From: Pyrobaculum ferrireducens | GTDB taxonomy: Archaea > Thermoproteota > Thermoprotei > Thermoproteales > Thermoproteaceae | Direction of reading: 5' to 3' | Assembly (NCBI RefSeq): GCF_000234805.1 | Contig: NC_016645.1 | Span: 844,391 to 908,390, forward strand | Length of the DNA stretch: 64,000 bases | Part shown: positions 7,793 through 25,062 of the stretch, piece after piece | How positions within the stretch are numbered: the first letter of the stretch is position 1 | Layout: each line of letters starts with the position of its first letter | Made by a program: the position numbers and the translations under genes | The notes under the pieces: model-generated | The model's database searches: none | Seen by the model: the letters and a program-made list of their open reading frames with translations, nothing else | Told to the model about the DNA's origin: nothing

Positions 7793-9194
7793 GAAGAACC
7801 TACAAAAGAATTGAAACTGTGCTAGTGAGTTTTGTCGCAGTTGCGAATTCTGTGAGAAGAACCTACAAAAGAATTGAAACTCAGTTGAAAGCCGAGATAG
7901 TTGAAAGGTGGGTGGGGACAGTGAAGAACCTACAAAAGAATTGAAACTTAGTAGGTTTATAGGATAATGGCCTACCCCTTTTACCACCAGAAGAACCTAC
8001 AAAAGAATTGAAACATTTTGCCGAAATACCTACTCCACTGGGGACACACAATTTTGAAGAACCTACAAAAGAATTGAAACGATGGAAAAAAAGGGGGGGC
8101 TACTTGAATACGTACGTCACAGAAGAACCTACAAAAGAATTGAAACTTAGATGGCTTACTACTGGAGGGGCGCCCACGCGCACTGTGAAGAACCTACAAA
8201 AGAATTGAAACTCGTGCGGCAGTGAAAGCAACGCGAAAAACGCCGCCTGGAAGAACCTACAAAAGAATTGAAACAGCCAAATACCGCTCATAGAAGCGAG
8301 TTAGTAAACTGGCCTCGAAGAACCTACAAAAGAATTGAAACTTAATGTGAAGAGCGTAGCTCCTCTTGCCCCACGGCGAAGAACCTACAAAAGAATTGAA
8401 ACATGATAGCCCGCTCCTCCTCACCCTCAGGCATACAGCAGTGAAGAACCTACAAAAGAATTGAAACGTTGTACTAGATGGCTGTATAGGACTTAAATAT
8501 GTGACAACAGAAGAACCTACAAAAGAATTGAAACTTAATAGGTACGTATACTAAGATGCCCCTCCTCCTAGTCTTTGAAGAACCTACAAAAGAATTGAAA
8601 CGCCTATATACCGCGGTGCGCAGGTCGCGCCTGACTTCTGAAGAACCTACAAAAGAATTGAAACATTTTTGCGCGCGCTACGACATCCAGCGCCTGTATG
8701 CTACGTGAAGAACCTACAAAAGAATTGAAACTACATCTAGCACCCCATATTTCCTAAATGAACCTTTCATTGAAGAACCTACAAAAGAATTGAAACTATA
8801 CCTGCTTATTTTCTCGTTTATTTCAAGTATTTCAAAAATGAAGAACCTACAAAAGAATTGAAACTAATCACCCCAAATTCCACCATACATAACGTAAATG
8901 CGGTAGAAGAACCTACAAAAGAATTGAAACACAGCACTGGGTCGTCTGTAGGCGACAGTCCCGTGTACCTCAGAAGAACCTACAAAAGAATTGAAACACT
9001 GTAGAGCTTTAGCTGATAGCTCGACCGTGGCGGCTTCTTGAAGAACCTACAAAAGAATTGAAACTGATTGGAATTGGGGGGAGAATTGGGGGGCGGTATG
9101 CGCGGAAGAACCTACAAAAGAATTGAAACTTTATTGTAGCGTTGGGCTTAGCATTCCATATCTCAGCCGGAAGAACCTACAAAAGAATTGAAAC
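7793..9194 (+). CRISPR. CRISPR array 2, 22 repeats / 21 spacers, transcribed rightward
   Basis: The 22 repeats (GAAGAACCTAC at the start, ATTGAAAC at the end, 25 nt) run from 7793 to 9194, with spacers of about 36-43 nt. All repeats appear identical, including the last (9170-9194). The handle sequence and the leader at 7510-7792 give rightward transcription, so the newest spacers are near 7818. I saw no repeated spacer. The last repeat overlaps the 3' end of the gene at 9177-10901 and supplies its stop codon. Confidence 0.98.
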
Positions 9195-10901
9195 AGAAAA
9201 TATGTGGCATCGGATTCTGCAGGTTTTGATGTGGATGGTGGTGTAGTGGGTGATGGAGGTGACGGCGGCGGCCAGCCACAGGCTGAATAGGAGAAGCCAG
9301 CTGTAGATCGTGCCCTCGTAGTTAATTATTAAGATCAGAGCGGCGTAAGTGGCGGCTAGGTACAGGGCCATTGAAGGGATTTTTCTTCTGTCGTGAATCG
9401 CGTATGTGGTTGCTACGGCGAGGGGGACAGTGGCTAGTACGTAAATGCCGAATGCGTCAATCAAATCGAGGGCTCTCGACATATAGGGCCCCACAACCGC
9501 GGCGAATATGAGCGGCAGAGTGAGCACGAGGTAGAGCTCGAGGGAGCGGCTTATCAAAGCGTCGAATAGTGTTGGCATCCTGTCTCTTATCAACACGGCA
9601 ACAGCTATGACGGCTACTACGGCTAGAGTTATGACTCCGGTAAATCCCCACGGCTTTATAATTTCCAGCTCCACGTGTCTATCATGCCCAGCGGTGGCGT
9701 AGGTGCTGAGGCCAGGCGCGGCTTTGCTCAGGTTTAGTTCAACCCTGTATCCAGGCGGCGCGTAGACGACGGCTTCGTATAGGGGCCTAGAAAACAGCCC
9801 TACAACCCTCACCGTTACGGGGACCAGCTTCAGCGTGACGTTGCCGCTGGCTTCGCCGCTGTAGTCCACCTTGGCGACTGCCGTGGCGTTGTAGTACCTA
9901 TACCTCACGCGGTAGGCGCCTTCTAGGCAGTAGGTGGCCACGGATCCCCTGCCCGCGGCGGCTTTGTAGTTGCCGTAGTAGATCTCCAGGTCTAGGGGGG
10001 CTCCGTTTGTGGCGTAGCCCGTCACGACGCAGTGCCTCCCCTCCACCACGTAGCGCTGGCCCGGCCTCAGCGCTACCTCGCCGCGGGGGGTTCTGAGGCG
10101 GGCCTCGCCGTAGTGGTACACGACGCCGTCTTCAAGCCCCGCGGCGTCAGAAACGATTAGGTTCAGCACCCAGCTTGGGACGGGGCGCCCGTCCAGCCCC
10201 ACGACGTAGGACTTGTTGGGGGGCACCCGGGCGGTGGCGAAGATGTAGTAGAGCTTGACGGCGGATTCGGTGATGCTCTTGTCCCAGTGGAAGCGGATGG
10301 CCGAGCCGTCGCCTCTGACCAGCCCGCTGTACCACCCCGTCTTGACCTCCGCCTTTACCCACCTGTCTCGTTGGAGGACCTCGGCCTCCCGGGCCCTCTT
10401 GCCCATGGTGCATGCAACGACCTCGCCGGGGTAGTCCAGCTTGAAGGTGTAGTTGCCGGCGGCGGTGCGGTTCGCCACGTAGGGGAGCACGTATAGTCTG
10501 CCGACTCTCATCTCGCCTCCGCCTTGGCGGCTGACGAGGATGTAGGCCTCCACCCTTAGCCCGGTGCGCACCTCGACCTTGCCGGGCCACTTGGCCTCGA
10601 ATACGGCTAGGTAGACGTTGGGTTTGTAAACGTCGTCTGTTTTGTATATGTACATCTTGACGGGGGCCTCCCTCCCCCCGACGAGGACTCTGACGGCGCG
10701 GTCCGCCGTGGAGTCGTCCACCGCCCCGATGACCCCGACGCAGTCGCCGTTGCAGTAGCCGTAGTCCTTATCCACGTCTGCGCCGCATGTATACGTGTAG
10801 GAGATCGCACCTGAGAAGTCGTATACCGCCACTGGCTGGGCGACCACGGCCGCGGCGTAGGCCAGGGCCGCGGCTAGAAGGACAAAAGGAGCTAGCTTCA
10901 T
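9177..10901 (-). CDS. Exported multi-domain protein with C-terminal membrane region, unknown function
   Basis: The 574-residue product has a signal peptide (MKLAPFVLLAAALAYAAAVVAQ), a long exported beta-rich part with many NxT/NxS sites and Cys residues, and several hydrophobic helices in the last 160 residues. A segment VRVVGLFSRPLYEAVVYAPPG near residue 375 resembles the VxxDFFRRP domain of the family B proteins at 40-51 kb. The last 18 nt lie in the final repeat of CRISPR array 2, so the C-terminal VSILL and the TAG stop are repeat-derived. The original C-terminus is probably lost. The start at 10901 fits the signal peptide. Function unknown. Confidence 0.75.
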   Translation of the reverse strand: MKLAPFVLLAAALAYAAAVVAQPVAVYDFSGAISYTYTCGADVDKDYGYCNGDCVGVIGAVDDSTADRAVRVLVGGREAPVKMYIYKTDDVYKPNVYLAVFEAKWPGKVEVRTGLRVEAYILVSRQGGGEMRVGRLYVLPYVANRTAAGNYTFKLDYPGEVVACTMGKRAREAEVLQRDRWVKAEVKTGWYSGLVRGDGSAIRFHWDKSITESAVKLYYIFATARVPPNKSYVVGLDGRPVPSWVLNLIVSDAAGLEDGVVYHYGEARLRTPRGEVALRPGQRYVVEGRHCVVTGYATNGAPLDLEIYYGNYKAAAGRGSVATYCLEGAYRVRYRYYNATAVAKVDYSGEASGNVTLKLVPVTVRVVGLFSRPLYEAVVYAPPGYRVELNLSKAAPGLSTYATAGHDRHVELEIIKPWGFTGVITLAVVAVIAVAVLIRDRMPTLFDALISRSLELYLVLTLPLIFAAVVGPYMSRALDLIDAFGIYVLATVPLAVATTYAIHDRRKIPSMALYLAATYAALILIINYEGTIYSWLLLFSLWLAAAVTSITHYTTIHIKTCRIRCHIFSVSILL

Positions 10902-10949: not shown

Positions 10950-11846
10950 TTAAGGTATAGAGGCGGTGCAGTCCCGGGGCGGCGTTTGGCGTGTCCCGCA
11001 GTTTTCTAGTTGGATAGGTAGGAGGGCGCCGTAGCCGAGTTCGGCTAGGTAGCCTTCGTTACCTCTGCACCCCCTTGCCTCCACCACTGTGCCGGGGGGG
11101 AGGGCTGGGTACATGGGCCTCCTCTCTCTGCATACTTCGGAGAAGCCTAGGCCCCACTGCACTAGTTTGACTTTGTGGTCTGGCTCAAAGCGGTCTTTCT
11201 CTTTCTTGAGGGTGCCCAGTGGTTTGAGGCAGTCTGGTAGCTTGCCTTCGGGGGCGAGGAGTGGGGATATGACGAGGGCGGTGCCGTCTATCTGGCTGGG
11301 TGGCGGTATTGGGAGTTGGCCGTCTTGTATCTCGACGGTGGCTAGTCTGCCTTCTCCTCCAAGTCTGGCGACGCCTCTCTTCAGCCCCCGTGCCTCGACG
11401 TAGTATATGTAGGCGGCCCTCTCGGCGACGTAGGTGGCGCTGTAGAGGTAGCCGGGGGCGGCTGTCTTGTGGGGGCCGAGGGCGAGCCCGATCCTCCTCA
11501 CCACGTGTAGCTGCCTGACGTCGACGGGCTTGGCCGCCGCGCCCTTGGGCTCTATCTGGTATAGGAGGGCGGCGCCGGGGGCGTAGAGGGCGCCGTCTAT
11601 CTCCACGAGGGGGCCCCATATCCGCTTGACCCCCAGGACCTCGGCGAGCTGTTCCAGCTGTCTTTCGGCGGCTTCCGGCCCGTTGCCGGGGCACTGCGTT
11701 GTTACTCCCGCCAGCGCGCCTAGCAGGCCTAGGAGGGTGGAGGGGGGCGGGGCGGCGGCCGCGGCGTCTCTGGCGGCGACTGTGGGCGTCGATAGGGGCC
11801 TGGCGGCGAGGCGGGCGTAGCCTAGGGGCTTTATGACTACTTTCAT
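10950..11846 (-). CDS. cmr3: Cmr3 (Cas5-like subunit of type III-B complex)
   Basis: Cmr3 is the RAMP subunit that binds the crRNA 5' handle next to Cmr2 at the foot of the complex. The roughly 298-residue sequence has the N-terminal RAMP strand (VVIKPLGYARLAARPL), a helix-rich PPSTLLGLLGAL segment as in Cmr3, and a Gly-rich C-terminal region (GNEGYLAELGYGALLPIQL). I chose ATG 11846, which overlaps the cmr2 stop as ATGA; the frame also allows 11852. It is translationally coupled with cmr2. Annotation rests on position and fold pattern as much as on motifs. Confidence 0.85.
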   Translation of the reverse strand: MKVVIKPLGYARLAARPLSTPTVAARDAAAAAPPPSTLLGLLGALAGVTTQCPGNGPEAAERQLEQLAEVLGVKRIWGPLVEIDGALYAPGAALLYQIEPKGAAAKPVDVRQLHVVRRIGLALGPHKTAAPGYLYSATYVAERAAYIYYVEARGLKRGVARLGGEGRLATVEIQDGQLPIPPPSQIDGTALVISPLLAPEGKLPDCLKPLGTLKKEKDRFEPDHKVKLVQWGLGFSEVCRERRPMYPALPPGTVVEARGCRGNEGYLAELGYGALLPIQLENCGTRQTPPRDCTASIP

Positions 11847-14566
11847 GCCCACTCCCTCAGGGCTTTCAACAGCTCAACCGCGTTTTTCCACAGATCGGCG
11901 GTTTTCCACCGCGGCGTCTCCTCCGCCTTGCGGGGTTCCCCCACGCCGTGTTCCCTGGCTTCGAGATTTGTCAGCAGTTTGAGGAGGTCGGTGGGGGCTG
12001 TCTGGGCGCCGCTCTTCACGTTGCGCTGGGCGACGTAGGTGAACACGGCTTTGGCGGCTTCTAGGCAGGCCTCCTCGTTTTGGCATTTGGTGTCTGGGGG
12101 GTAGGCCCTTTCTAGGTCGTAGGGGAGGTTTCGGCTGAGTTTGCCGGTCCTGTAGTCCTCGGCGATTTCTTTGAGGAGTTTGGCGTCTTGGGTTTTGGCA
12201 AAGCCGGCGTGACCCGTGGAGGTGGATACGGCGAGGGCGTCTTTGCCGGGGACCGCGTCTTTCGCCTTTTCGAGGAGGTCTGCGGCGGCGTTCACCTCGT
12301 GGGCCATGAAGTCAGTGATGGCGTGAGCGGCTCTTATGGAGTAGCTCTTGCCGTAGGCCGCAAGCGCCGGGATGACATACGCGCCGAGTTTGTGGAATCC
12401 CCCGTCTCCCTCAAATGCTTTTCTGCTCTCGCTAGCTAGGTCAAACGCGGTCGCCATAGGCGCGAATACCAACAAGTCGTCGCCTCCCGCGAAGACGACC
12501 TCGCCGCTGTGCTTCATGGCGATGTATACATCTTTTAGAGCTGTGATCATCAACGAGGCGGAGAGCGTTGCGTAGTAGGCTGGGGACGGAACCACGTAAG
12601 CCCCCGTCCAGCCCCTCCCGCACACCCTCTCCACCTCTTCTTTAAACGCCTCCTTTACAGCCTTTACAAGCCTCCGGAACCGCTCCGCGTCCCTCTTCCA
12701 TTGCTCTATGTCTCCCTCGACATCTGCGTCGGGAGGTTGCGGCGCCGCTGGGAGGCACCCGGAGATCAGCTTCCCTATGTTGTCGGCATCCGCTCTAACT
12801 ATGGCGTACATGAGCGTGGGGGGTGGGAGGCTGGCGTCCCCGTCGCATATCTTTGGCGCTTCTGCAAGCGCCTTGTCGGCCGCCTCTGAGGAGCCGAAGA
12901 GGAGCTCGGCGTCGCCTCCATCTAAGATCTCCTCGACCTTGCGCCGGAGCTCGTCGCATTTCTTGAAGTACCCCATCCTGTAGTGCCGCATCAACGCCAC
13001 GGCTTCTACAGAGTCTATCTTGTTCCGGTATCTGTAGTAAAGCGCGCGTCTGAGCACATCTACGGGGCCTAGGGCCTCCTTAGGCTTGAAGACCTTCTTC
13101 AGCTCGTTGTAGTTCTGGACGCCGAGTTGGCCCAGCACCTTTTTGGTTTCGTCGTCGTAGTCCAGCACGCCGTTGACAAAGACCCCCGACAGCCTCAGCA
13201 CGGCTGGCTGATCCGGGTCGAGGGTGCTGTGCATCCACGTGCCGTCGTAGTGCTGGGCGAACCTGGGTACGCCGCCTTTTCCAAACCAATAGACGGCGTG
13301 CGGTACGGCGGGCTTTCTGCGCAGGACATCCAGCAAGGCCCAGAAGATAAACCTCATGGGATCTACCTCGAACTCGGCCCTCTCCCCCACCCCCTTGGCG
13401 GCTTCCTCAGCGCAGGGCCGCGCCTCTTTTATAGACGCGGTTCGGACCCTTAGCGGTAGGTACCTCCGGGGGATCTTAGCCAAGGCGGCCTTCGCGATTT
13501 TCAAGACGTCGCCGCCCGGCGCCTTCACTAACGGTAGCCACGGCTCCTTCTCCCCCAGCGCCGTCGCTCTAATGTCGTCGAGGACCTCTTCAAAATAGTC
13601 AACGGCCCTGCGCGCTTCGTCACAGCTGGGAAGGGCGAGATAGGCCGTGCCTGGGACGACGGGCGCATGTTCGACGATCTGCTTAACGAACTGATGCTCC
13701 GCCGCCATGCCCAGCGCCTTGCTCAACACAGATGTGTACAATCCATACGCCTTACTGCCCCACTCCGATTTCCATTTCCTTATTTGCACGTAATGAAATA
13801 CTTGTAGATAGTGGAATGGGTTGAAGCGGGGCGACGGCGAGAGCAACACGTCTGGGCCGTATTTCTCCATGTATCTCCACGCGGTGCCCCACACCGCCAG
13901 CGAGACTAGGAAGCTACCCGCCCTGTAGTCCCCCGCCTTCCTAGCCGACGATATTAAACTCTGGATCCCCGGGATGTCTATTTCTAAAAGGCAGCCGTCG
14001 TCCCTTAGGCTTCCGTTTTCATCTATCCAGTTCAGCACCGCGGCGGTGGCGTACAGGTGGTCGAAGATCGTGTGGGTGGGCATCCGGGTGTCTGCGGGGA
14101 GCGCGGGGAGGCCGGCGTCTATCCAAGCCAGCTCGTACGCGGCGTATAGGGCGAAGTAGGCCTCCCTCTCGTCGCCCGCGGCCTTGACCGCCTCGTTGAC
14201 TTTCTCGGCGTATTTCATCACCCTCTGCCTGAGCTCATCAAATGCCGGGATTTCCAGAGGAGTTCTCAGGGCGGGGTTGAATGGGTTGACCAGCTCCTTT
14301 GGCTTTACCCAGTACCTGGCCTCGCCCTCCGGCGCCAGGGCCCACCTGTCGAAGGAGGAGGCCAGCATGTCCGCGGCCTGGACGGCCTTGGCTGTCTTCT
14401 CGTCGGGGGCGCCGCCCCCAAGCTTGGTGCCTTGTAGGACTAGATCCAACAGCCTGCGGGCCTCCTCTTCGTGGGTGGTGCCGCCGAGCGGCTTAAAGCC
14501 GAGGGGCCAGAGGGCCTTATATGGGGGGTCGTGGAGAAGGGCCCAGGCCTTGGCGAACCAGTCCAT
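11843..14566 (-). CDS. cmr2: Cmr2/Cas10, large subunit of type III-B complex
   Basis: Cas10 senses bound target RNA, makes cyclic oligoadenylate (cOA) and can cut DNA. The 907-residue protein has the HD motif at the N-terminus (H12-D13 in LLHDPPYK), a first palm domain (around RADADNIGKLISG) and the second palm with intact GGDD at residues 694-697 (VVFAGGDDLL). Both catalytic centres therefore appear kept. Cys residues near the middle and C-terminus may bind zinc. It starts at ATG 14566 with a TATA-like GTTAAAAA about 25 nt upstream, divergent from cmr4. The functional GGDD agrees with csx1 being nearby. Confidence 0.97.
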   Translation of the reverse strand: MDWFAKAWALLHDPPYKALWPLGFKPLGGTTHEEEARRLLDLVLQGTKLGGGAPDEKTAKAVQAADMLASSFDRWALAPEGEARYWVKPKELVNPFNPALRTPLEIPAFDELRQRVMKYAEKVNEAVKAAGDEREAYFALYAAYELAWIDAGLPALPADTRMPTHTIFDHLYATAAVLNWIDENGSLRDDGCLLEIDIPGIQSLISSARKAGDYRAGSFLVSLAVWGTAWRYMEKYGPDVLLSPSPRFNPFHYLQVFHYVQIRKWKSEWGSKAYGLYTSVLSKALGMAAEHQFVKQIVEHAPVVPGTAYLALPSCDEARRAVDYFEEVLDDIRATALGEKEPWLPLVKAPGGDVLKIAKAALAKIPRRYLPLRVRTASIKEARPCAEEAAKGVGERAEFEVDPMRFIFWALLDVLRRKPAVPHAVYWFGKGGVPRFAQHYDGTWMHSTLDPDQPAVLRLSGVFVNGVLDYDDETKKVLGQLGVQNYNELKKVFKPKEALGPVDVLRRALYYRYRNKIDSVEAVALMRHYRMGYFKKCDELRRKVEEILDGGDAELLFGSSEAADKALAEAPKICDGDASLPPPTLMYAIVRADADNIGKLISGCLPAAPQPPDADVEGDIEQWKRDAERFRRLVKAVKEAFKEEVERVCGRGWTGAYVVPSPAYYATLSASLMITALKDVYIAMKHSGEVVFAGGDDLLVFAPMATAFDLASESRKAFEGDGGFHKLGAYVIPALAAYGKSYSIRAAHAITDFMAHEVNAAADLLEKAKDAVPGKDALAVSTSTGHAGFAKTQDAKLLKEIAEDYRTGKLSRNLPYDLERAYPPDTKCQNEEACLEAAKAVFTYVAQRNVKSGAQTAPTDLLKLLTNLEAREHGVGEPRKAEETPRWKTADLWKNAVELLKALREWA

Positions 14567-14685: not shown

Positions 14686-15615
14686 ATGGCGGGGAGAATT
14701 CTCTGGGTCCTGGCCTTGACCTCTCTGCACCCCGGCGTGGGCCGTTCTGAGGAGGCGTATGTGGACCTGCCTGTCCAGAGGGATGAGTTCGGCCTCCCCG
14801 CCATATGGGCATCCAGCCTGAAGGGCGCGGTGAGGGCTAAGGCGGAGGGCGGGCTCTTCGATGGCCCCGCCTGCGTCGACGCGTCTAAGGCTGAAGACTG
14901 CGCCAAGGTGATAGCAGCTTTCGGCCCCAAGCCAGAGGCCGCCTCTGAGCACTCGGCGGCGGTGTCTTTCCTCGACGCGAAGCTCTTCGCAATCCCGGCC
15001 CGGTCCCTCAAGGGGGTGTGGCTCTACGTGACGTCGCCGCTTTTATTCGGCTTCGCGAAGCTCTACGCTGAGGCTCTGGGAGAGGGGCTCAACTTGCCCC
15101 AGCTTCCCCCGGTGGCTCCTGGGGAGGTGGCCCTCTCCGATAAGTCGTACGCGGTTGGAGACCACGCGGTGATCAACGAGATCAAGCTCAAGGTGTCTTC
15201 ACAACAGGCGCCCCGCCTCGACATCGGCCCGTTTAAGAAGGTGTCGCAAATACTGGGCGCACAGCCCGGCTTCGCTGTGGTGAGCGACGAGGATCTGCCG
15301 AGGATTGTCAGGAGGAGCCTCATGGTGCAGTACAGGGTGAGGCTCAAGAAGGAGACCAAGACCGTCGAGGTGGGGCCGTGGAGCGAGGAGTACATCCCGC
15401 CCTTCACGGCGTTCGTGACCGGCATACACTGCAACGGGAGGGCGAGGACCGCCGTTAAGGTCAAGGTGCGCTCTAATGATCCTAATAAGTTCGAAGAACA
15501 CACGGTGCAGTTGAAACAGTTCGACCCGTGCGAGTACGTAGAATCTAAGGCTAAGGGCCCGTTGTGGATCGGGGGGAAGGAGACGGTGGGGAAGGGCCTC
15601 GTGGAGATACTATGA
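14686..15615 (+). CDS. cmr4: Cmr4 (Cas7-like backbone subunit, target RNA nuclease)
   Basis: Cmr4 forms the helical backbone that cuts bound target RNA every 6 nt. The 309-residue product has the family N-terminus (LALTSLHPGVGRSEEAYVDLPVQRDEFGLPAIWASSLKGAVR in outline: residues about 10-50). This includes the conserved Asp of the YVDLPVQRD segment and the SSLKGAVR RAMP motif; a Gly-rich loop (WIGGKETVGKG) is at the C-terminus. It starts at ATG 14686 and overlaps cmr5 by an ATGA junction. Confidence 0.94.
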   Translation: MAGRILWVLALTSLHPGVGRSEEAYVDLPVQRDEFGLPAIWASSLKGAVRAKAEGGLFDGPACVDASKAEDCAKVIAAFGPKPEAASEHSAAVSFLDAKLFAIPARSLKGVWLYVTSPLLFGFAKLYAEALGEGLNLPQLPPVAPGEVALSDKSYAVGDHAVINEIKLKVSSQQAPRLDIGPFKKVSQILGAQPGFAVVSDEDLPRIVRRSLMVQYRVRLKKETKTVEVGPWSEEYIPPFTAFVTGIHCNGRARTAVKVKVRSNDPNKFEEHTVQLKQFDPCEYVESKAKGPLWIGGKETVGKGLVEIL

Positions 15616-16040
15616 CGTGGCTTGAGAAGGCGCTGGCCTGCGTGAAGTACGTCGAGGCCTACTGCGATGAAGACGCCAGGTCGGCGTTTAGGACGAGGGC
15701 TAGGCAGATCCCCTCCGAGATCTATTACGTCGGCTCGGCCTACGCCTTCGCCATACTGGCCGCGAGATCCAGCGAGAAGGACATATACGCCGGGGGGAGC
15801 TTCGAGGAGAAGGTTAAGGCCATCTGCGGCGATAGGGGGAAGGGGAGGGAGGAGAAGGGCTACGCCCTCTACGGGGCCTGCCTTCTGGAGGCGTTTAGGG
15901 AGCTGGGGATACCGGTAAACAACCTCGCCGAGACTTTAAAGTCGCTGGACGAGAGGGGGGCTCTCGTGGATTTAGAGCTGGCGGAGTACGTGGACTGGCT
16001 TAAGAAGCTGGCTGAGGCCAAGTTCGAGGCTGAGAGATGA
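15612..16040 (+). CDS. cmr5: Cmr5 (small subunit of type III-B complex)
   Basis: Cmr5 forms the inner filament beside Cmr4. The product is all-helical, 142 residues, with the family pattern WLEKALACVKYVEAY at the start, a central IYYVGSAYAFAILAAR helix and a C-terminal YALYGACLLEAFRELGI segment. The frame opens at 15564 but ATG 15612 overlaps the cmr4 stop (ATGA) and gives the normal N-terminus. It also overlaps cmr1 by 4 nt. Confidence 0.9.
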   Translation: MTWLEKALACVKYVEAYCDEDARSAFRTRARQIPSEIYYVGSAYAFAILAARSSEKDIYAGGSFEEKVKAICGDRGKGREEKGYALYGACLLEAFRELGIPVNNLAETLKSLDERGALVDLELAEYVDWLKKLAEAKFEAER

Positions 16041-17209
16041 GGGCTCAGTTTGACTTGACTATCGCGACGCCGCTGTCCGTGGGGTGGTATCGGCCAAATA
16101 TATTGGATACTCAGTCTTTCATCAGGCCTACGTCTATCAAGGGAGTGTGGCGTTGGTGGGCGAGGGCTTTTGTGGGCGGCGTTTTGTACGAAAGGGGTTG
16201 TCTCCGGGCGCGTAGGGGTAAATTGGTGTTTTTGGAGCCTGATCTTGATGTTGTGCGGAGGATAAGCCAGATAACTGGTAAAGTGCTGGGGCTGGGTTAT
16301 GCAGGTGGTGGAGATGCCTCTGCGTCTAGGTTTAGGATAGTTGTGAGGGTTTTGGGGAGGCCGTATATAGGTTCTGTTACGAGAGCAAGTCGCTACGTGG
16401 AGTATGGCTATGGTAAGAGGGCTGAGTTTCAGAGGTTTAACCTGCTATCGTTATCTGATAAGGTTGAGTACGCGCTTGGTGGGAGATTTAGGTTGGAGAT
16501 ATCCGGTAGAGGGGTGGATTCGAAGATCTTCACGCTAGGCCTCCAGATGTTAGCGGTTGCTCTCACTCTTTCGGGCCTGGGGAAGGGCTCTAGGAAGGGG
16601 CTTGGTTCACTAGATATGACGTGGTCCGACTTCTTGCCCCGGACTTCAGTAGGCAAGCTTATAGAGGAGGTTAGGGCCTCGCTGGAGAATCTGATAACTG
16701 ATAGATGCGGGGGTCCTCAGAGGGAGTTGCCGCCGATGCCTGTGGTGACCAAGGCGTCGCTGGATATGAGGCTGGCTTCTGTGTACCGAGTCGTGGGCTT
16801 GGATGCTCCGTCTCTACACAACTTCTTTCTGCGGCCTCAGAGGGCTAGGGTGACTGTCGGTAGCCCTAAGGGCCAGGACGAGCTCAGGCGGAGGCTTGAG
16901 GCGTGGGTTTTGGGCCTGCCGCGGGAGCAGAGGGGGACTGGATACATCGCGGAAGTGGATAGGAGGGCCTCGACGTTTATGGTGGCGTACCACGGCCAGG
17001 GCCATTGGTTCAACTCCTCCGGGGAGGCCGGCGGCTACCTGACGGTGTTGGTGTCGGGGGATTGGCCGACATCGATTACGTGGAGCAACACGGGAGAAAG
17101 GGAGCTGTCTATAGACGCGGCTAAGGTTATTTCTGCTTATTTAACGGCTTTCCACGAGTTTGAGGATTATGTCAAGAAGATGGGGGGAACTATAGCGGCG
17201 ATATGGTGA
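16037..17209 (+). CDS. cmr1: Cmr1 (Cas7-like head subunit)
   Basis: Cmr1 caps the complex and helps bind target RNA. The 390-residue protein opens with FDLTIATPLSVGWYRPN and the RAMP motif RPTSIKGVWRWWAR (residues about 30-43), which is diagnostic of Cmr1; GLGKGSRKGLGSL is the Gly-rich loop. ATG 16037 overlaps cmr5 as ATGA; the 3' end overlaps cmr6 by 7 nt. The gene is more AT-rich and uses more GTT/TTG codons than cmr4-5, suggesting a different recent history for the distal part of the operon. Confidence 0.93.
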   Translation: MRAQFDLTIATPLSVGWYRPNILDTQSFIRPTSIKGVWRWWARAFVGGVLYERGCLRARRGKLVFLEPDLDVVRRISQITGKVLGLGYAGGGDASASRFRIVVRVLGRPYIGSVTRASRYVEYGYGKRAEFQRFNLLSLSDKVEYALGGRFRLEISGRGVDSKIFTLGLQMLAVALTLSGLGKGSRKGLGSLDMTWSDFLPRTSVGKLIEEVRASLENLITDRCGGPQRELPPMPVVTKASLDMRLASVYRVVGLDAPSLHNFFLRPQRARVTVGSPKGQDELRRRLEAWVLGLPREQRGTGYIAEVDRRASTFMVAYHGQGHWFNSSGEAGGYLTVLVSGDWPTSITWSNTGERELSIDAAKVISAYLTAFHEFEDYVKKMGGTIAAIW

Positions 17210-18009
17210 GAGGAGCCGGAAAGAGGCGCGGGGGAAAGTCTAAGAAGTTAGAGGAGGAGATTATCAAGATCATAAGGGGGGCCTTAGCTAGGCTGTGTAG
17301 CGATAGCTACAACGTGGTGTCGTGTTTTAATCTTGCGTTTTTAGAGTCAATGCGCGAGGCGGCGGGGCTGGGGCTTAAGCCCCCGCTGTTCTCTAGAGAG
17401 GCCGTGGCGTATCTATATGAGAAGCCTCCTATGTATTTACGTCCTGACGTTGTTGGGCGATATGTAGAGGCGGTTATGGAGGCTGCTAAGTCAGTTTTTA
17501 GGCCGGTGTACAGGTTTGAGTTTACGCTCGAGACGAGGCTTGTTATTCATACCAAGTGGCCTTATCTGCCTCTGGAGATCGGGATCTCATGGCATCCTAT
17601 TTTCAACATTCCCTATATACCGGCTACCTCTCTAAAAGGCGCGTTGAGAGCAACCTTTCCTAACTCTTTATGCGAATTGGATAAGACAGCTCTATTCGGG
17701 GAACAATCTGAGGAGGGGAAACTAACAGTGTTTGATGCCTATCCAGTAAAGTGGGAAAAGCTGGTGGAGCCCGACGTCATCACGCCGCACTATAAGGAGG
17801 TAAGTGGCGTCATTCATGAGGCCGCCGCCGATCCGATACCGCTTGTGTTTCCCGCGATTCCCCCAGGTGTTACATTCGCCTTTATAATTGGCGTTAAGAG
17901 CCACGGCCTAGGCTCTGAATGTGTTACTGAACTTTTTAACGCTGTCAGAGACGCGTTACGCCTAGGGGTAGGCGCCAAGACAGCAATAGGTTACGGAATA
18001 TTTAAATAA
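17203..18009 (+). CDS. cmr6: Cmr6 (Cas7-like head subunit)
   Basis: Cmr6 sits between the Cmr4 filament and Cmr1. The 268-residue product has an N-terminal basic/helical extension and the RAMP core IPYIPATSLKGALRATF (residues about 140-156), then a C-terminal GLGVGAKTAIGYGIFK, the family's Gly-rich end. It starts inside the cmr1 end at ATG 17203. It is the last standard cmr gene; transcription very probably continues into the ATPase 11 nt downstream. Confidence 0.92.
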   Translation: MVRGAGKRRGGKSKKLEEEIIKIIRGALARLCSDSYNVVSCFNLAFLESMREAAGLGLKPPLFSREAVAYLYEKPPMYLRPDVVGRYVEAVMEAAKSVFRPVYRFEFTLETRLVIHTKWPYLPLEIGISWHPIFNIPYIPATSLKGALRATFPNSLCELDKTALFGEQSEEGKLTVFDAYPVKWEKLVEPDVITPHYKEVSGVIHEAAADPIPLVFPAIPPGVTFAFIIGVKSHGLGSECVTELFNAVRDALRLGVGAKTAIGYGIFK

Positions 18010-18020
18010 TTAAACAAATA

Positions 18021-18884
18021 ATGCAAATTATTATGAGAATAACCAAGATAGAAGTGCTAAATTTCAAGAGAATCGAAACCGCAGAGATAGACGTAGACAA
18101 CAACAAGCTTCTTCTCTTCGGCCCCAACGGAGCAGGAAAAACTAGCCTCATACATGCACTTTTGACATTATTAGGTTACATTAGCGAGGAAAGCGGGGTT
18201 GAAAATATAATCAGTGGATTGTTGGCGAGATCTCCGCAATCTCATATTAGGCTAGGCGCTGATAAGGCAACCATTTCAGCAGTTATTGACGGGAAAAAAT
18301 ATAGTTTAGAAATAGATAGATTCGCTGGCACAACCCTATACGTTGATGGGGAAAGAAAGGATACTACGTTGAGATTTTCTCTTTCATACCTCGCTCCATG
18401 TGTAGTGCGTAATTCAGTGGACGAGGAGCTGTGGGAGATCTCTCTATGTCCGCCTGGGATCAATATAAGGGATCCTAGGATAGCTGAATTGGTTAGGCGA
18501 GAAATTTATCTTCTAGGAATTGAAGACTTCTACTTTGACATGGTAAAAGAGAGAGGACATTGGATCAATTTGCGTGACCTCGCATATGGATTAGTCCGAG
18601 TTTTAGGGTTGCTCTTAGCCATATATGGTGAGCCTGAGATCTTAATATTGGATACCTTTGAGGCTGGGATGCACTACGACTTGGCTGTAGATGTGATAAA
18701 GTTCTTGACTTCGTTGCCGTCTTTCGTAATTTTGGAGTCTCATATTGGTCTTTCTGTCAAGGCGGCTCTTAAGAGGGGATGGTCTGTCTACTATGTGAAA
18801 GAGGGTGAGTTTATAAGAATTCGTAACATGGACGAGTTGAAGAATATCGCATATGCAGAGGCCAGGGCCTTCGCAGAGGCATAA
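18021..18884 (+). CDS. AAA/ABC-type ATPase at the end of the cmr operon
   Basis: The 287-residue protein is an SMC/OLD-like ATPase: N-terminal strand ITKIEVLNFKRIE, Walker A GPNGAGKTS (residues about 35-43), and a Walker B region ILILDTFEAGMH. The usual DE(P/I)E is replaced by DTFE, so the standard catalytic Glu after Asp is Thr. ILESHIGLSVKAALKRGW holds the switch His. The start is ATG 18021 or 18033 (MRITKIE). The gene lies 11 nt after cmr6 and overlaps the next gene by 32 nt, so it is in the cmr operon. Codon use is AT-rich, unlike cmr2-5, hinting at transfer. ABC-type ATPases are known accessory proteins of type III loci; its exact role here is unknown. Confidence 0.8.
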   Translation: MQIIMRITKIEVLNFKRIETAEIDVDNNKLLLFGPNGAGKTSLIHALLTLLGYISEESGVENIISGLLARSPQSHIRLGADKATISAVIDGKKYSLEIDRFAGTTLYVDGERKDTTLRFSLSYLAPCVVRNSVDEELWEISLCPPGINIRDPRIAELVRREIYLLGIEDFYFDMVKERGHWINLRDLAYGLVRVLGLLLAIYGEPEILILDTFEAGMHYDLAVDVIKFLTSLPSFVILESHIGLSVKAALKRGWSVYYVKEGEFIRIRNMDELKNIAYAEARAFAEA

Positions 18885-19338
18885 AATCAGCGGCTACAGC
18901 ATAAAGGATAGCCGTTGCGTCGACGTCGAATGGGGGGCTTACTGTACTAAGCCGTACTGCGTCTGTAGCCCCGACGTATCTAGCTCCTTCCCCTATAAAT
19001 GCGATGATGTCGCAGCGCGTATGAACAGTGGCGATTTGCCGCCGTTGCCCGACTGTCTACTTGTGTTGGTGGGCCCGAGGGGGCCGGCTGAGAAGATTTT
19101 GGTTGAATGTAAGTGTAATCTTGACCGGGGGGCTAGGACAAGGAAGGAGCCAGCGAGACTTCTGGGAGAGATAGAGAGTAAGTTCAACGCAACATCTCAT
19201 TACCAGGCTAGTCGCCGTGTTGTAGTTATCCCGCCGGGGCGTGAATTTTCTGCGCTGGCTGAAGAGATTAAGGGGAGGGGGTGGGAGGTGGAGTTTTGCT
19301 GTAGCGAGGTTTGTGGGGTGTGTAAATGGTGCTCTTAG
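18853..19338 (+). CDS. Candidate PD-(D/E)xK nuclease, Cys-rich, partner of the upstream ATPase
   Basis: The 161-residue protein has LPDCLLVLVG followed after a short turn by ILVECKCN, spacing that fits the D...ExK core of restriction-endonuclease-fold nucleases. A following helix (RLLGEIESKF) and a strand RRVVVIPPG fit the fold. It carries many Cys: several in the first 45 residues, and CCSEVCGVCKWC at the C-terminus, which could bind zinc or an Fe-S cluster. ATG 18853 overlaps the ATPase by 32 nt, a coupled pair. The fold assignment is inference from motif order; I do not recognise a named family. Confidence 0.6.
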   Translation: MQRPGPSQRHKISGYSIKDSRCVDVEWGAYCTKPYCVCSPDVSSSFPYKCDDVAARMNSGDLPPLPDCLLVLVGPRGPAEKILVECKCNLDRGARTRKEPARLLGEIESKFNATSHYQASRRVVVIPPGREFSALAEEIKGRGWEVEFCCSEVCGVCKWCS

Positions 19339-19868
19339 TGGTTGTTAGGGGAGAGGACGCGGGGAGGGTTGCGGAAAGGCTGGGATGCCCCCGGGGGCCT
19401 TCTAGGCCGGGGGAGCTGGTGCGATGCGGGGAGTATGCGCTTTACCTCCAGTTGGTGGAGGCTGTCGGGGGGGTGGAGTACTACTATATGGACGTGACGC
19501 TGGCCGACTTCTGGAGGGATGGGGAGTATCTTTCTGAGGAGGCGGAGAGAGCAGGTGCCTACAGCCCGGAGAGGGCGTTGGAGGTTTTGAAGAGGGTTGC
19601 CGATTTGGCGCTTCTGGCTGTCGGGTCGAGAGCGCCTAGTGTGACTAGTGCCGGGGACAGCGTCTTTCTTCACCACGACTTTGTCTGGGTGAGAGAGGGA
19701 TTTACGCCGGTGGGTAGGAGCCGCGATATTTTGGCATATGTGTTTGGGAGCGTAGCCGCTCTTGATGTTGAGTTTCTGATACAGGTGAATGAGGGGCGTT
19801 TTGAAAAGTTTGCGGGGGGCTATCTGGTTAGGTTGCGGAGTTTTTCAACATCTGGGGGGTTTCAGTAG
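19326..19868 (+). CDS. Unknown protein, last gene of the extended cmr operon
   Basis: 180 residues, no family recognised. It starts at ATG 19326, overlapping the nuclease candidate by 13 nt, so it is probably co-translated. The N-terminus (VLLVVVRGEDAGRVAERLGCP) reads as beta-alpha. A middle acidic part YYYMDVTLADFW and a helix PERALEVLKRVADLALLAVG follow. No Cys cluster, membrane segment or nuclease motif is clear. The 3' end overlaps convergent csx1 by 24 nt. By position it may be a regulator or partner of the ATPase-nuclease pair; function unknown. Confidence 0.6.
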   Translation: MVLLVVVRGEDAGRVAERLGCPRGPSRPGELVRCGEYALYLQLVEAVGGVEYYYMDVTLADFWRDGEYLSEEAERAGAYSPERALEVLKRVADLALLAVGSRAPSVTSAGDSVFLHHDFVWVREGFTPVGRSRDILAYVFGSVAALDVEFLIQVNEGRFEKFAGGYLVRLRSFSTSGGFQ

Positions 19869-21311
19869 TTGTATTAACTCAGCCACTTTATCGCCGTCGT
19901 AGGCGGCCTCGACTATCTTGGCCTCTCTCACAGTTACTTCTCTTACTACGGTATACGCGAAGCCGCCGTGGGCCAGCAGGTTGCGCAGGTCCCTCTCCGA
20001 TACGCCCTTTCTGCCCTCCCTCCTGAGGAGCGCCTCGGCCGCGCACAGCGCGTCTTCCCACGCGTCTCTCAGAGCGTCGGCGTCTTTAATCTCCAAGAGC
20101 CTCTTGCTGTTATCGAAGAGGGCGGCGACTTCGCGTTGCGCCAGCCTCACGGCCCCCTCCCTCGTCTCCAGCACGCCCTTGTCGGCCATGACCTCGGCGG
20201 CTTTCGCCATGAGCCCCAGCTCGTCGGCTGTCGTTCTGAGCACCTTGCTCACCAAGGCCACGCCGGCCTTCTCGTAGTGGCCGGCCGCTTTGTTGAGGAA
20301 GGCGGCTAGGTCCTCCGCCTTCAGCTTGTCGAGCTCCCTTTCGAGGTAGTGGAGAGCCACTTGGATGGGGTACGAGACGTCGGCCTCTCCGTATGAGACG
20401 GTGTGCGTTTTGTCGTCGGGATTCACTTCGTCGGGGGGTGGCGGCAGGCCGCTGGATCCGGAGCCCGGCTTGTAGATCGCCGGTTCCCTCCCCACGTACC
20501 TCGCGTGGGGGAACAGCAAGGCGGCGGCTCCGGAGGCCAGCAACATGTAGGAGGTGACGACCTTCTCGAATCTGGGGCACAGCTCCTGGGGCATCTCTCT
20601 CGGCGTATCGATTCTGGAGGGGGCTAGCGATTTCAGTGCCGAGAGCTGTCTGATAGCCCTTATGACGCTCTGTAGCTCCGTTACGTCGAGTACCGCAAGG
20701 CTTGGGAGCTCTTTCTTGACCTGCTTCTGTCTCTCTTCTTTTATGCAGTTCTCCGTGATGTGGTCGGGCGGATATGGTTCCGAGTTGTAGATAATTGTCC
20801 TGCCCTCCAGGTCCAGCAATACGGAGGCGGCCACGGCGGCGTAGAGCACGGCGACGGTTTGGTAGTTCACGCCGTGGGTTAAGTCGACGACTATGAAGCT
20901 GGGTCTCGACTTCTCCTCCGCTTTCTGGAGGATGGCGTGTAGCGTCTTGTTGAAGATGTGCAGAGCCGTGGCCTTGAAGTGCCAGCCGTGGTAGAGGCCG
21001 ATGCCGGGGAGCGACACCACGTCCGCCTTGACATCGAGTTTCTCCGCCCACTCTCTGTATTTTTCCTCGACTGCCTTCCTAAGCACCTGGTCGGCGGGGG
21101 GTATGGCTGTGTCCATGCCGAAGATGAGGACATCAACGTCTCTTGCCTTTCTGAGCTGTTGCGCCAGAGCCGCGGTGGAGCTACAGCCCTCCACGTCCTC
21201 GGCCTCTATCCGGAGGGCAGGATGTTTGACCTCAACGCGGTATTTGGCTTTGCGCCACTGGGGTGGGTTTCCCCATGGCGCTATTAGGAGAAATCTCATC
21301 TTTCTCTCCAT
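19845..21311 (-). CDS. csx1: Csx1-family CARF-HEPN ribonuclease
   Basis: Csx1 proteins bind cOA made by Cas10 through a CARF domain and then cut RNA with a HEPN domain. The 488-residue product has a Rossmann-like N-terminal half with VVDLTHGVNY (DLTHGVNY at residues 143-150, the CARF motif of the Csx1/TM1812 group). The helical C-terminal half contains R443-N-L-L-A-H448, a Rx4H HEPN active site. Start at 21311, or MRFLLIAPWG four codons on. It is convergent with the cmr-linked operon rather than part of it. Activity is expected from the intact motifs. Confidence 0.93.
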   Translation of the reverse strand: MERKMRFLLIAPWGNPPQWRKAKYRVEVKHPALRIEAEDVEGCSSTAALAQQLRKARDVDVLIFGMDTAIPPADQVLRKAVEEKYREWAEKLDVKADVVSLPGIGLYHGWHFKATALHIFNKTLHAILQKAEEKSRPSFIVVDLTHGVNYQTVAVLYAAVAASVLLDLEGRTIIYNSEPYPPDHITENCIKEERQKQVKKELPSLAVLDVTELQSVIRAIRQLSALKSLAPSRIDTPREMPQELCPRFEKVVTSYMLLASGAAALLFPHARYVGREPAIYKPGSGSSGLPPPPDEVNPDDKTHTVSYGEADVSYPIQVALHYLERELDKLKAEDLAAFLNKAAGHYEKAGVALVSKVLRTTADELGLMAKAAEVMADKGVLETREGAVRLAQREVAALFDNSKRLLEIKDADALRDAWEDALCAAEALLRREGRKGVSERDLRNLLAHGGFAYTVVREVTVREAKIVEAAYDGDKVAELIQLLKPPRC

Positions 21312-22098: not shown

Positions 22099-22392
22099 TG
22101 GGATGTGGGGTGGAGTTTTCGAGACACGCGTTAGAGAAGCACAGACTAGACGTGGCGAAATACGCCGGGTTGGAGTTCCTGGAAGCCGTGGTCTCGAACG
22201 TAGAAGCGGTTTTCCACCGCGGAGAGCCGGACGCTGTTCTTGATAGGTTTATCGGCTTGGATTGAGAGGAGGAGGGCTGTGGTTAAGTATAGGTGTAAGA
22301 CGCTACGCGTCGTGGTGGCGAAGACGCTGCGTTGCTACTTAATCGTGACTGTGTTTCCAGATCCGGGGACCCACTTCGTTGTGGAGGGCTAA
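22098..22392 (+). pseudogene. DUF4258-like toxin gene, apparently frameshifted
   Basis: From ATG 22098 the frame gives VEFSRHALEKHRLDVAKY and an EFLEAVVSNVEAVFHRGEPD segment, the N-terminal half of DUF4258-type proteins, and stops at 22263-22265. A different frame from about 22258 to 22392 gives ERRRAVVKYRCKTLRVVVAK and CYLIVTVFPDPG, which fits the C-terminal half of the same fold. A single frame change between about 22210 and 22262 would join them. It follows a DUF2283 gene, a common pairing. Two separate short genes is the less likely alternative. The 3' end overlaps the convergent gene by 4 nt. Confidence 0.55.
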
Positions 22393-23255
22393 ATCTCTAG
22401 GAACTCCAGTATCCAGTCTAGGGGTCTGGAGAGGCCTATCATGAATCCCTTGACGTCGCTTTTCATGCCGCCGAAGGCGTAGCGGGTCGCCTCCAGGTCG
22501 GCGCTGTATCCCAGCTCTCCGAGGGCCTGGCTGTACGCCTCGATTACGCGATCCAGCTCCTCGGCAGTGCCGACATCTAGGGCGAGGACCTCCAGCGCCA
22601 CTACGTACTTCAGCCTGCCTGACCGCTCCATAAGCTCTAGGTAGTCCTCAGCCGCGTGGCTCGCCCCGCGTCTGCGTATGCGGTAGGCCAGGGCGTAGCC
22701 TAGGAGCGTTGGCCTGCCCCGCGGGTCTGCTAGGTGGAGGCTGTAGAGGTAGGCTTTTCTAAACCTCATCTCCCGGCGGTAGGCGTCTGGATCCGCGCCC
22801 CTCGGCCTCCGCTGTATGTCTAGGAGCCGTATCGTCTTTTCGAGGTCGAATTTCTTGGAGGCGCTCAGCGCCTCTACCAAGATCACTTTCTCGGGTAGCG
22901 TGAGGATAGGGGGGAGGTACGCCAAGTCCTCTGGCGACTTTGCGTTGACTGCTTTCTGGACCGCCGCCATCGCCTTGGCCAGCCTCTCGCCGTCGATGGA
23001 GAGGTCGCGGATGAAGTCGGCGACGGCGCCGAGGTTCGGCTCGCGGCCACTCCTCGTGGTGTATCCGAGGTTGTTCAGCCTCTCGGTTATCCAGCTCTGG
23101 TGGGGGCCGAGCCTCTCTATCCGTCGTATATGCCGTTCATACACCATCTGCTTATCTAGGCCGGATCTCTCTGCGTATGCTAGTAGTAGTAGTACCCTGG
23201 GGGATTGGTATATCCACGTGCCGCGTCGGCCTTGGAAAAGGCTCGGCGGCTTCAT
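22389..23255 (-). CDS. Unknown helical protein, third gene of a three-gene operon
   Basis: 288 residues, largely alpha-helical with many Arg/Leu, no recognised motif. The N-terminus GRRGTWIYQSPRVLLLLAYAERSGLDKQMVYERHIRRIERLG could be a winged-helix or helical DNA-binding part; a conserved-looking NLGYTTRSG lies near residue 65. ATG 23255 overlaps the upstream ATPase stop by 4 nt. It may be a partner or target-recognition subunit of the ATPase. Function unknown. Confidence 0.6.
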   Translation of the reverse strand: MKPPSLFQGRRGTWIYQSPRVLLLLAYAERSGLDKQMVYERHIRRIERLGPHQSWITERLNNLGYTTRSGREPNLGAVADFIRDLSIDGERLAKAMAAVQKAVNAKSPEDLAYLPPILTLPEKVILVEALSASKKFDLEKTIRLLDIQRRPRGADPDAYRREMRFRKAYLYSLHLADPRGRPTLLGYALAYRIRRRGASHAAEDYLELMERSGRLKYVVALEVLALDVGTAEELDRVIEAYSQALGELGYSADLEATRYAFGGMKSDVKGFMIGLSRPLDWILEFLEI

Positions 23256-24460
23256 GCCAGGAATAGCTCTATAGCTAGGTAGAAGTTGTCCTCCCCGCTC
23301 TGTGTCAGCAGTCTTTGTTGCGGCTCTTCGCCTACTAGGGCGTCTCTTAGGTGTGTAATTGCCGACGCGGTCAGCACGTAGCCGCCTGGGGCCCTCCGCA
23401 TCAGCGGCCTCCGCCTCTCCACCAACAGCTCAACTACCTGCGGTTCGCTTGTCACTGCTTCCGTGCCCGTCAGCGTCTTGCCTAGTTCTAGAGCTCTGTG
23501 TATATCCACTTCTGTCAGAGTTGCATATATGTTCTGCTTGAGCCAGGCGGCGAGGTAGGCGACGTAGAGAGCCTCCTTTGTCTTTACAGAGGATCTGTAC
23601 ATGTAGGCTATGTTTTTTAGATGCTGGGCCCTCGCCTTGACCACTTCCTCGGGGGCTCTGCCGGCTTTTATCTCCGCCACAATCCTCATAACAGCCCTTG
23701 GGTTTCTAAACTCCACGGAAGCGAGGGGTTCCCCAACCCTCCCCACTTTTCTCTCGAGGAAGATCTTCATGGCGCTGGGCGTCACGTCTTGGTGGAGGTA
23801 GTATATAGGCGCTATGCGGCTTTTGATCTGTATGTCGAAATGTACCCAGAGGGATGTGGGTATGGCGATGCCAGCGGCGTTTCCCCACCTATCCACGAGA
23901 TTGAAAAACTCCTCGACGAGGTGGCTCAAATCTCTAAAGCCGTAGCTCTGTGGCTGCTCCACCAGCCTCTCGAACTCGTCCACCACAACGTGGTACCCCC
24001 TCTCCCGCAGGGCCGCCACTGCGTTGCGAAGCTTCTCTAACCCCTCCCCCTCTATCGGGACGTCGACGTCCGGCAGATCAGCCGCCTCCCCTAGCTTGAG
24101 GCCCCTCTCCCAAACCCAGCCAAGCCCATTGAACCACTTTTTGTAGTTCATACACTTCAGAGCTCTCCCCAGCTCTGCGAGGTTCGAAACCTCGCTGAGC
24201 TTCGCCTTCTTTTTTGAAAAAACGACTTGATTAGCCTTGAGGACGACAGACGGAGTCCCAGCGAGGTTTTTAAGAAGCGCCGTTAGCGTGGCCACGAGAC
24301 TCTTGCCCTGTCCGTAGTGCCCCGCCACCGCCCCCCCGACGTCGAGGACTTGGTAGGCTTTTCTCACCATTTCGCCAAGCGCCGGGTTTGCCGGCTCGCC
24401 GAATTCGCCAATCTCATTACATATCTCCTCTAGCGCCGACGCCACAGATGTGGTTATCAT
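23252..24460 (-). CDS. P-loop ATPase of a three-gene operon, possible defence component
   Basis: 402 residues with Walker A GHYGQGKS (residues about 48-55) and Walker B HVVVDEFERL (around residue 160). The GxYGxGK...VDEFExL style resembles AAA/STAND ATPases such as the BREX BrxD/DUF2791 group, but a specific family is not claimed. A C-terminal helical region (PQVVELLVERRRPLMRRAPGGYVLTASAITHL) reads like a winged helix. It overlaps both neighbours by 4 nt, so the three genes are one operon. About 3 kb from csx1. Confidence 0.7.
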   Translation of the reverse strand: MITTSVASALEEICNEIGEFGEPANPALGEMVRKAYQVLDVGGAVAGHYGQGKSLVATLTALLKNLAGTPSVVLKANQVVFSKKKAKLSEVSNLAELGRALKCMNYKKWFNGLGWVWERGLKLGEAADLPDVDVPIEGEGLEKLRNAVAALRERGYHVVVDEFERLVEQPQSYGFRDLSHLVEEFFNLVDRWGNAAGIAIPTSLWVHFDIQIKSRIAPIYYLHQDVTPSAMKIFLERKVGRVGEPLASVEFRNPRAVMRIVAEIKAGRAPEEVVKARAQHLKNIAYMYRSSVKTKEALYVAYLAAWLKQNIYATLTEVDIHRALELGKTLTGTEAVTSEPQVVELLVERRRPLMRRAPGGYVLTASAITHLRDALVGEEPQQRLLTQSGEDNFYLAIELFLA

Positions 24461-25062
24461 ACTACCAGAAGTTTTCCTCCAAAAGATTTATTAAGTGTTT
24501 CACCTAGCCGCCCAATACGTTTTTGTAATACCTCTTCATTTACTTCTCTGCCTGGTCCCTTTTCCATCACTTCGAGATATGAGAGCAACGCGGCGTAGTA
24601 GGCCACCACATCGCTTAGAGCAACAAAGTAGTTTTTACCCTCCCTCCGCCCCTTAACACCCGCCTTCTCTAGCAAGCGAGCCTCAACTTTATGAGGTCTA
24701 TCTGTAAAAATTATTGGATTTAGTTTGATGTATTTTTCTATATAACGCTTTAGCTTCATACTATCTACATTCTTTATAGCATAGGCCTTCTCGACTGCGA
24801 ATAGCTTAGTAGATGAGAGATACTGCTCTAAAAATTCCTCCGTTTCACGCATGTGTATCCCCCAAAATGCCGTGGTTAAGGCCATGTAGTGGTCCCCCCT
24901 TCTTTCTAGTGATTCACCAATCTCGTGGCTTGTCTTGGCGAGCTCTGCACTCTGCTTTACAACCGGCCCGCGGAACACGACAACGCCGGCTCCCATGGCG
25001 CTGTGGTATGCGGAGAAGTCGATAGCTAATACATACGGCGCATTAGCTAACTGCAGAAGCAC
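24457..25062 (-). CDS. Candidate RNase H-fold nuclease, first gene of a three-gene operon
   Basis: 201 residues. The order of segments fits an RNase H/RuvC-like fold: strand YVLAIDFS with Asp, strands GAGVVVFRG and VVKQSAEL, a helix, strand KLFAVEKAYAI with Glu, NPIIFTDRPHK with Asp, and a C-terminal helix ALSDVVAYYAALL with Asp. These four acids would form the metal site. This is inference from pattern only. It starts at GTG 25062 with TTTAAACCTCTAAAAG about 20-30 nt upstream. It overlaps the ATPase start by 4 nt. AT-rich codon use differs from 25099-27700. Confidence 0.55.
   Translation of the reverse strand: MLLQLANAPYVLAIDFSAYHSAMGAGVVVFRGPVVKQSAELAKTSHEIGESLERRGDHYMALTTAFWGIHMRETEEFLEQYLSSTKLFAVEKAYAIKNVDSMKLKRYIEKYIKLNPIIFTDRPHKVEARLLEKAGVKGRREGKNYFVALSDVVAYYAALLSYLEVMEKGPGREVNEEVLQKRIGRLGETLNKSFGGKLLVV

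Follow-up and report, generated by a model that had tools for sequence, protein, structure and literature searches.

The question raised by this locus is what three genes at the end of a type III-B (cmr) operon do there, and whether they work together with the Cmr complex. The window, by which we mean the whole stretch of 64,000 nt analysed here, comes from a crenarchaeal genome of 2.47 Mb (G000:C1:844391-908390). An earlier note on this DNA had taken the three genes as a candidate for an undescribed effector. They are called A, B and C in the list below, in which percentages are protein identities to L102, a cmr operon of genome G002.

10950..11852, minus strand: cmr3, of the group-II lineage, 66% to L102 (TIGR01888, 8e-9, below the NCBIfam cut-off; PADLOC Cmr3, 4e-14)
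11843..14566, minus strand: cmr2/cas10, with an intact GGDD and an HD-like "LLHDPPYK" near the N-terminus (TIGR02577, 2.5e-45)
14686..15615, plus strand: cmr4, 76% to L102 (TIGR02580, 4e-50)
15606..16040, plus strand: cmr5, 72% to L102 (TIGR01881, 2e-8, called as 15564-16040 in that search)
16037..17209, plus strand: cmr1, first gene of a block of different ancestry, 47% to L102, third-position GC (GC3) 63 vs 81 in cmr5 (TIGR01894, 1.7e-7)
17203..18009, plus strand: cmr6, GC3 53 (TIGR01898, 4e-32)
18021..18884, plus strand: gene A, minimal ABC-class (AAA_21/AriA-like) ATPase of 287 aa (Pfam AAA_21, 8e-14)
18853..19338, plus strand: gene B, Cys-rich PD-(D/E)xK-like protein of 161 aa, with a PDC...VECKC hairpin and a C-terminal Cys cluster
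19326..19868, plus strand: gene C, PADLOC cas_RFas (PDLC01070) of 180 aa (E=6e-50)
19845..21311, minus strand: csx1, CARF-HEPN family of cOA-activated RNases (TIGR01897, 3.4e-66; Csx1_CARF, 7.9e-33; PADLOC CARF9, 7.6e-212)
16037..19868: block cmr1-cmr6-A-B-C, defined by an identity break, by trees with AU tests and by a GC3 dip against cmr3-2-4-5

The NCBIfam and PADLOC searches recognise all six cmr genes, of which cmr3-cmr2 are read from the minus strand and cmr4-cmr5-cmr1-cmr6 from the plus strand. A gap of 11 nt separates cmr6 from A, A and B overlap by 32 nt and B and C by 13 nt, and csx1 is convergent to C with an overlap of 24 nt between their ends. The gap, the overlaps within the trio and the motifs Walker A (GPNGAGKT), Walker B DTFE (LILDTFEAGMH) and PDC...ECK are all present in the sequence as the earlier note had described. 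The start of A is possibly at 18033 and not at 18021, since homologues align from 18033. The statement that no CARF is seen in the cassette was wrong, because the next gene (19845-21311, minus strand) is csx1 with its CARF-HEPN architecture (TIGR01897, Csx1_CARF). Since this gene is adjacent and the GGDD of Cas10 is intact, cOA signalling very probably operates in the system of the window, and the argument that a missing CARF points to a trigger by direct contact falls away. Such a trigger is possible on other grounds, namely the co-segregation of the trio with cmr1-cmr6 described below. The GGDD motif is kept in every trio-bearing Cas10 examined, and the messenger arm is therefore probably alive in the trio systems, where it may also be the trigger.

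The trio A-B-C adjoins Cmr operons in about 17 loci of about 13 genomes, mainly in Thermoproteales and once in another family of the phylum. Its gene order is the same across the loci, and the genes overlap in most of them. Besides the window, it occurs at L013, a second cmr locus of the genome analysed here, and in G010 (L011), G012 (L012), G009 (L014, where a first A/B copy is decayed), G024 (L107), G037 (L109), G025 (L108), G039 (L131) and G044 (L135), and with a weakly recognised C in G042 (L122). A divergent form, which we call group II, follows cmr6 in G002, G005, G008 and G010 (L102, L103, L104 and L106), and a second locus of G008 (L105) carries the trio with just a cmr3 fragment. In the different family (L240 of G243) the trio lies between cmr3 and cmr4. 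It is not immediately 3' of cmr6 in L011, L012 and L108, and A is divergent from cmr4 in L108 and L240. Several trio loci other than the window also have csx1-like genes. Within Thermoproteaceae, all intact cmr operons that were found by the cmr6 search and inspected have the trio, and the extra cmr6 matches in G002 are remnants. A third copy in G010 (L242:4615-7111, minus strand) flanks the first operon of this genome, where it lies beyond csx1 on the other side of the trio-bearing cmr operon, and its ATPase is longer (an ORF of 476 aa).

With profiles of B and C, 290-398 genomes of the phylum were searched, and all convincing matches lay at type III loci. In viral contigs there were no relatives of B or C and just remote ATPases for A; no B was found in plasmids and no C in phage records, and a scan of genome contigs with the ATPase profile gave remote ATPases only, among the matches listed. 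Among the outcomes that the earlier note had named as speaking against it are a trio not conserved next to cmr genes and genes found mainly apart in unrelated settings. We found instead conservation at about 17 loci, with B and C at type III loci only in the genomes searched. Co-localisation with cmr genes together with rarity elsewhere is what identifies an ancillary module of type III-B systems, and both were observed.

The operon of the window is a chimera, as examined by protein identity to L102, by trees with AU tests and by third-position GC. Identity to L102 is 66, 66, 76 and 72% for cmr3, cmr2, cmr4 and cmr5, respectively, and drops to 47, 48, 33, 26 and 27% for cmr1, cmr6, A, B and C. 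In the trees, cmr3-2-4-5 of the window and L102 are sisters (100/100) and a placement in group I is rejected (p=1e-13), whereas the sisterhood of window and L102 is rejected for cmr1-6 (p=8e-78), A (8e-80) and C (3e-6). A and C of the window fall in group I (98/98 and 96/94), and group II is rejected for them at p=0.021 and p=0.008, respectively; for cmr1-6 the placement in group I is not significant (46/69) and group II is not rejected (p=0.12). GC3 is 75-81% in cmr3, 2, 4 and 5, is lower at 63% in cmr1, 53% in cmr6, 44% in A, 60% in B and 65% in C, and reaches 77% in csx1. The simplest reading of these sequence data is that a group-II operon acquired the 3.8-kb block 16037-19868 in exchange for its own version of these genes. 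On this reading, the trio travels together with Cmr1 and Cmr6 and can be combined with other Cas10, Cmr3, Cmr4 and Cmr5 proteins. Cmr1 and Cmr6 form one end of the Cmr complex. Since the trio co-segregates with the genes of just these two subunits, the most economical guess is that it docks at the Cmr1/Cmr6 end, and it is to this site that a natural chimera with Cas10, Cmr3, Cmr4 and Cmr5 of one lineage and Cmr1, Cmr6 and trio of another points. A plain crossover in mid-operon would leave an identical pattern, and the co-segregation may reflect no more than recombination of the downstream half.

Gene A had been called an SMC/OLD-like ATPase, and the searches support an ATPase of the OLD/AriA class. 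It matches Pfam AAA_21 and AAA_15 and has an H-loop (ESH) in addition to the Walker motifs given above. Among PDB entries, the family profile matches AriA of PARIS best (1e-12), with PtuA, Rad50 and OLD next among others, and gene A itself matches the PADLOC AriA model at 1.6e-13. The family conserves GPN..GK, a G..R signature, [DE]-x-[FL]-E-A-G-L-H and the H-loop E-[ST]-H, and A has no coiled coil. In the alignment to AriA, the DE of the AriA Walker B falls on E-n of the A family. At the position of the canonical catalytic Glu, A of the window has T. Nearly all of the 19 members have one of N, A, T, G, V, P and D there, and one locus (L105) has Glu. From what is known of ABC ATPases in general, a protein missing this residue is predicted to hydrolyse ATP slowly and to form dimers that are stable with ATP bound, and A would behave in this way.

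Comparison with known systems places the trio near PARIS, with which it shares an ABC ATPase, AriA being the best solved relative of A, and a separate small effector gene. However, the Walker-B Glu of AriA (DEPE) is absent in A of the window and in nearly all relatives, AriB is a TOPRIM protein and neither B nor C has a TOPRIM match, A is shorter than AriA, the trio has a third gene C, and it is tied to Cmr whereas PARIS is stand-alone. Having neither TOPRIM nor the canonical catalytic Glu, both of which were looked for, the trio is best read as PARIS-like in its logic and not as a member of PARIS. OLD, Gabija and Septu (GajA, PtuA) share the AAA_15/AAA_21 class of ATPase with A; the trio differs from them in its link to CRISPR and in having no fused TOPRIM, no GajB helicase and no PtuB HNH. 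The two-gene logic of OLD/Gabija type that had been suggested is retained as an ATPase of the OLD/AriA class wired to a type III-B system, and not as regards a fused TOPRIM or a GajB helicase, since A is an ATPase only (287 aa) and the trio contains no helicase. Like the type III CARF/SAVED nucleases (Csx1, Can1/Can2/Card1 and NucC), it is a Cmr-encoded unit with a nuclease-like effector, but its ATPase and C protein are separate and no CARF or SAVED domain was matched in A, B or C with Pfam, NCBIfam and PADLOC.

Gene B is a more difficult case. It has no match in Pfam, NCBIfam, PADLOC or PDB sequences, and single members of its family have weak Pfam matches (RE_BsaWI 0.086 and PDDEXK_13 0.23), which are in the right superfamily and not significant. 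When relatives are anchored on the motif, they have in common a hairpin of the form [P]D-x(n)-hhh-[E]-x-[K] followed by a helix, a hydrophobic strand and a helix, usually with Cys near the C-terminus, and B is Cys-rich throughout. One relative alone departs from the hairpin D (E in L013), and two depart from the hairpin E (S in L109 and D in L131). At the Lys position about half of the members have K and the others T, M, A or R. B of L240 has the canonical PD...ExK form, PDLVFKIKRMCYLVELKV. The putative active-site residues of B in the window are D67, E85 and K87. With hhalign, the full alignment of B gave no signal against Hjc and Cas4; the motif-anchored alignment brought their catalytic residues into register with the D and E-x-K hairpin of B, at an HHsuite probability of about 1%, which is not significant. 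The anchored scores exceeded nearly all column shuffles, as did those of the cmr5 control, and the result is therefore no more than consistent with a PD-(D/E)XK fold. B differs from Cas4/Hjc in its much smaller conserved core and in a Cys layout unlike that of Cas4; there is no Pfam match to Cas4 among B members, and the hhalign probability for it is 0.1-0.9%. AlphaFold modelling of B from the single sequence reached a pLDDT of 40, a confidence at which Foldseek matches are uninformative. Support for B as a candidate PD-(D/E)xK nuclease thus comes only from its D...E-x-K hairpin, and not from any family, PDB or significant profile match, and the Lys is replaced in about half of the family. We consider it rather probable that B is a true member of this fold, with a putative nuclease role.

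Several copies of B are disrupted. B of G010 (L011:9700-10153, minus strand) is interrupted by an in-frame TAG, soon after which an ATG might allow a restart, with A and C intact, and B of G024 (L107:9494-10010) is apparently frameshifted in an A-rich stretch right after the ECKC motif, with A and C open. In G002 (L102:14185-15581), a second copy of A-B-C is decaying, with B frameshifted and C truncated where a CRISPR array begins. A broken B beside open A and C (L011, L107) might fit a costly effector, and the disruptions could also be decay or sequencing errors.

Gene C is already catalogued. PADLOC covers it with PDLC01070 for group I and PDLC01095 for group II; the two models are named cas_RFas and bear the descriptions "cluster 17 associated" and "Unknown function". 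Of the 14 members of the C family, six match PDLC01070 and four PDLC01095. No statistically significant fold match was obtained for C, and AlphaFold modelling from the single sequence gave a pLDDT of 51, at which Foldseek matches are meaningless. C is thus a member of cas_RFas, whose entries (PDLC01070, PDLC01095) carry no function and describe neither the A-B-C module nor B; the trio gives this orphan a context. No description of the module was found in the parts of the literature searched, which did not extend to a dedicated survey of type III accessory genes, so an earlier mention of A or B is possible. The main survey of this kind is reportedly that of Shah et al. in RNA Biol. In a Pyrobaculum CRISPR survey, the cmr and csx1 genes of these loci are reannotated, with no ATPase term in its text and no trio genes in the appendix table (PMC3396285), and a term search of the 2025 classification paper gave no description of the module (PMC12669027). 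Gene B is uncatalogued in the libraries searched and the module A-B-C apparently undescribed, while C was catalogued without a function, and the candidate effector proposed earlier is upheld as a conserved three-gene unit of type III-B systems.

The three genes probably constitute an undescribed helper module of Cmr immunity. As to its action, we tentatively favour an ATP-gated ancillary module of type III-B (Cmr) systems that is docked on Cmr1/Cmr6, with B as the likely effector and C as a dedicated adaptor or regulator. A would bind ATP, dimerise and probably hydrolyse slowly, acting as a clamp or switch and not as a motor, and B would cut nucleic acid with its PD-(D/E)XK-like active site. 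Docked at the Cmr1/Cmr6 end, A with C would silence or position B on or near Cmr, and recognition of target RNA would license or release B, in parallel to the cOA-Csx1 arm. The model for the gating of B by A is the closest worked-out precedent, in which AriA sequesters the nuclease AriB and then releases it on a trigger (PMC12409363). A protein relay in place of a diffusible messenger, in which ATP-locked A and adaptor C on Cmr1/Cmr6 would signal directly to nuclease B alongside the cOA-Csx1 arm, seems to us speculative and unlikely. Type III immunity has so far been described mainly through cOA/SAM-AMP messengers and CARF/SAVED-type sensors. Should B prove to be a nuclease that A gates on Cmr, an effector branch controlled by an ABC ATPase would be added to it, and ATPase gating in the style of PARIS and OLD would be linked with CRISPR targeting.

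Other explanations have to be weighed against this module. A and B could be a helper in DNA processing or adaptation, a pair like Rad50/Mre11, HerA/NurA or Cas4 that trims invader DNA for spacers or degrades it at transcribed targets, which we regard as possible but doubtful. The membership of A in the Rad50/OLD/SMC class and the register of the B hairpin with Cas4 and Hjc (at the non-significant probability given above) argue for it. Further, in a sister family the cmr operons L123, L124, L125 and L127 are without the trio and carry at its place long genes that we read as CARF, NurA-like and HerA-like from their sequences and from the published Pyrobaculum arrangement; a CRISPR-linked nurA-herA pair is reported for this genus (PMC3396285). 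This set is possibly a functional counterpart of the trio. However, the trio is tied to cmr and not to cas1/cas2/cas4, NurA/HerA-like genes stand alongside it in L135, and A has no coiled coil and is missing the catalytic Glu that a motor should have. We give a similarly low probability to a cOA- or SAM-AMP-dependent effector, in which C or A would be an unrecognised sensor of the Cas10 messenger that turns B on; the GGDD of all trio-bearing Cas10s examined the csx1 gene of the window and the csx1-like genes of several more trio loci fit this idea, while Csx1 is already there as cOA receptor and no CARF/SAVED match is found in A, B, C or the A4/A5 families.

It is quite unlikely, in our estimate, that the trio is a module for assembly, turnover or regulation, in which A and C remodel or load Cmr and B is a catalytically degenerate, Cys-rich protein stabilised by metal or disulfides. 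The loss of the putative active-site Lys in about half of the B family, its Cys content and the co-segregation of the trio with cmr1-6 would agree with such a role, but D and E of the hairpin are nearly invariant while the rest of B diverges, and some members, as in L240, have the canonical PD...ExK. That the trio is a selfish element or a hitchhiker of a defence island, functionally unconnected with Cmr, is very improbable: although the block has a foreign composition, a relative of A occurs with no cmr nearby (L111), and in L110 A and a decayed B adjoin a type III operon of another kind, B and C were not found away from type III loci in the 290-398 genomes, and the trio is conserved with cmr across genera and in one other family.

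Two further regions of the window were noted. Beyond csx1, at 22389-25062 on the minus strand, there is a run of three genes of 288, 402 and 201 aa with no significant family match, whose start/stop overlaps suggest one operon; the 402-aa protein has Walker-like GHYGQGKS and VVVDEFE motifs. Two CRISPR arrays (1377-3850 and 7793-9214) have one repeat family in opposite orientations, and a 151-nt inverted repeat (97%; 3792-3942/7667-7817) extends into the flanks of both. In the array at 1377-3850, identical repeat-spacer units follow one another in tandem at 3220-3463, and one unit is duplicated (2839/2901).
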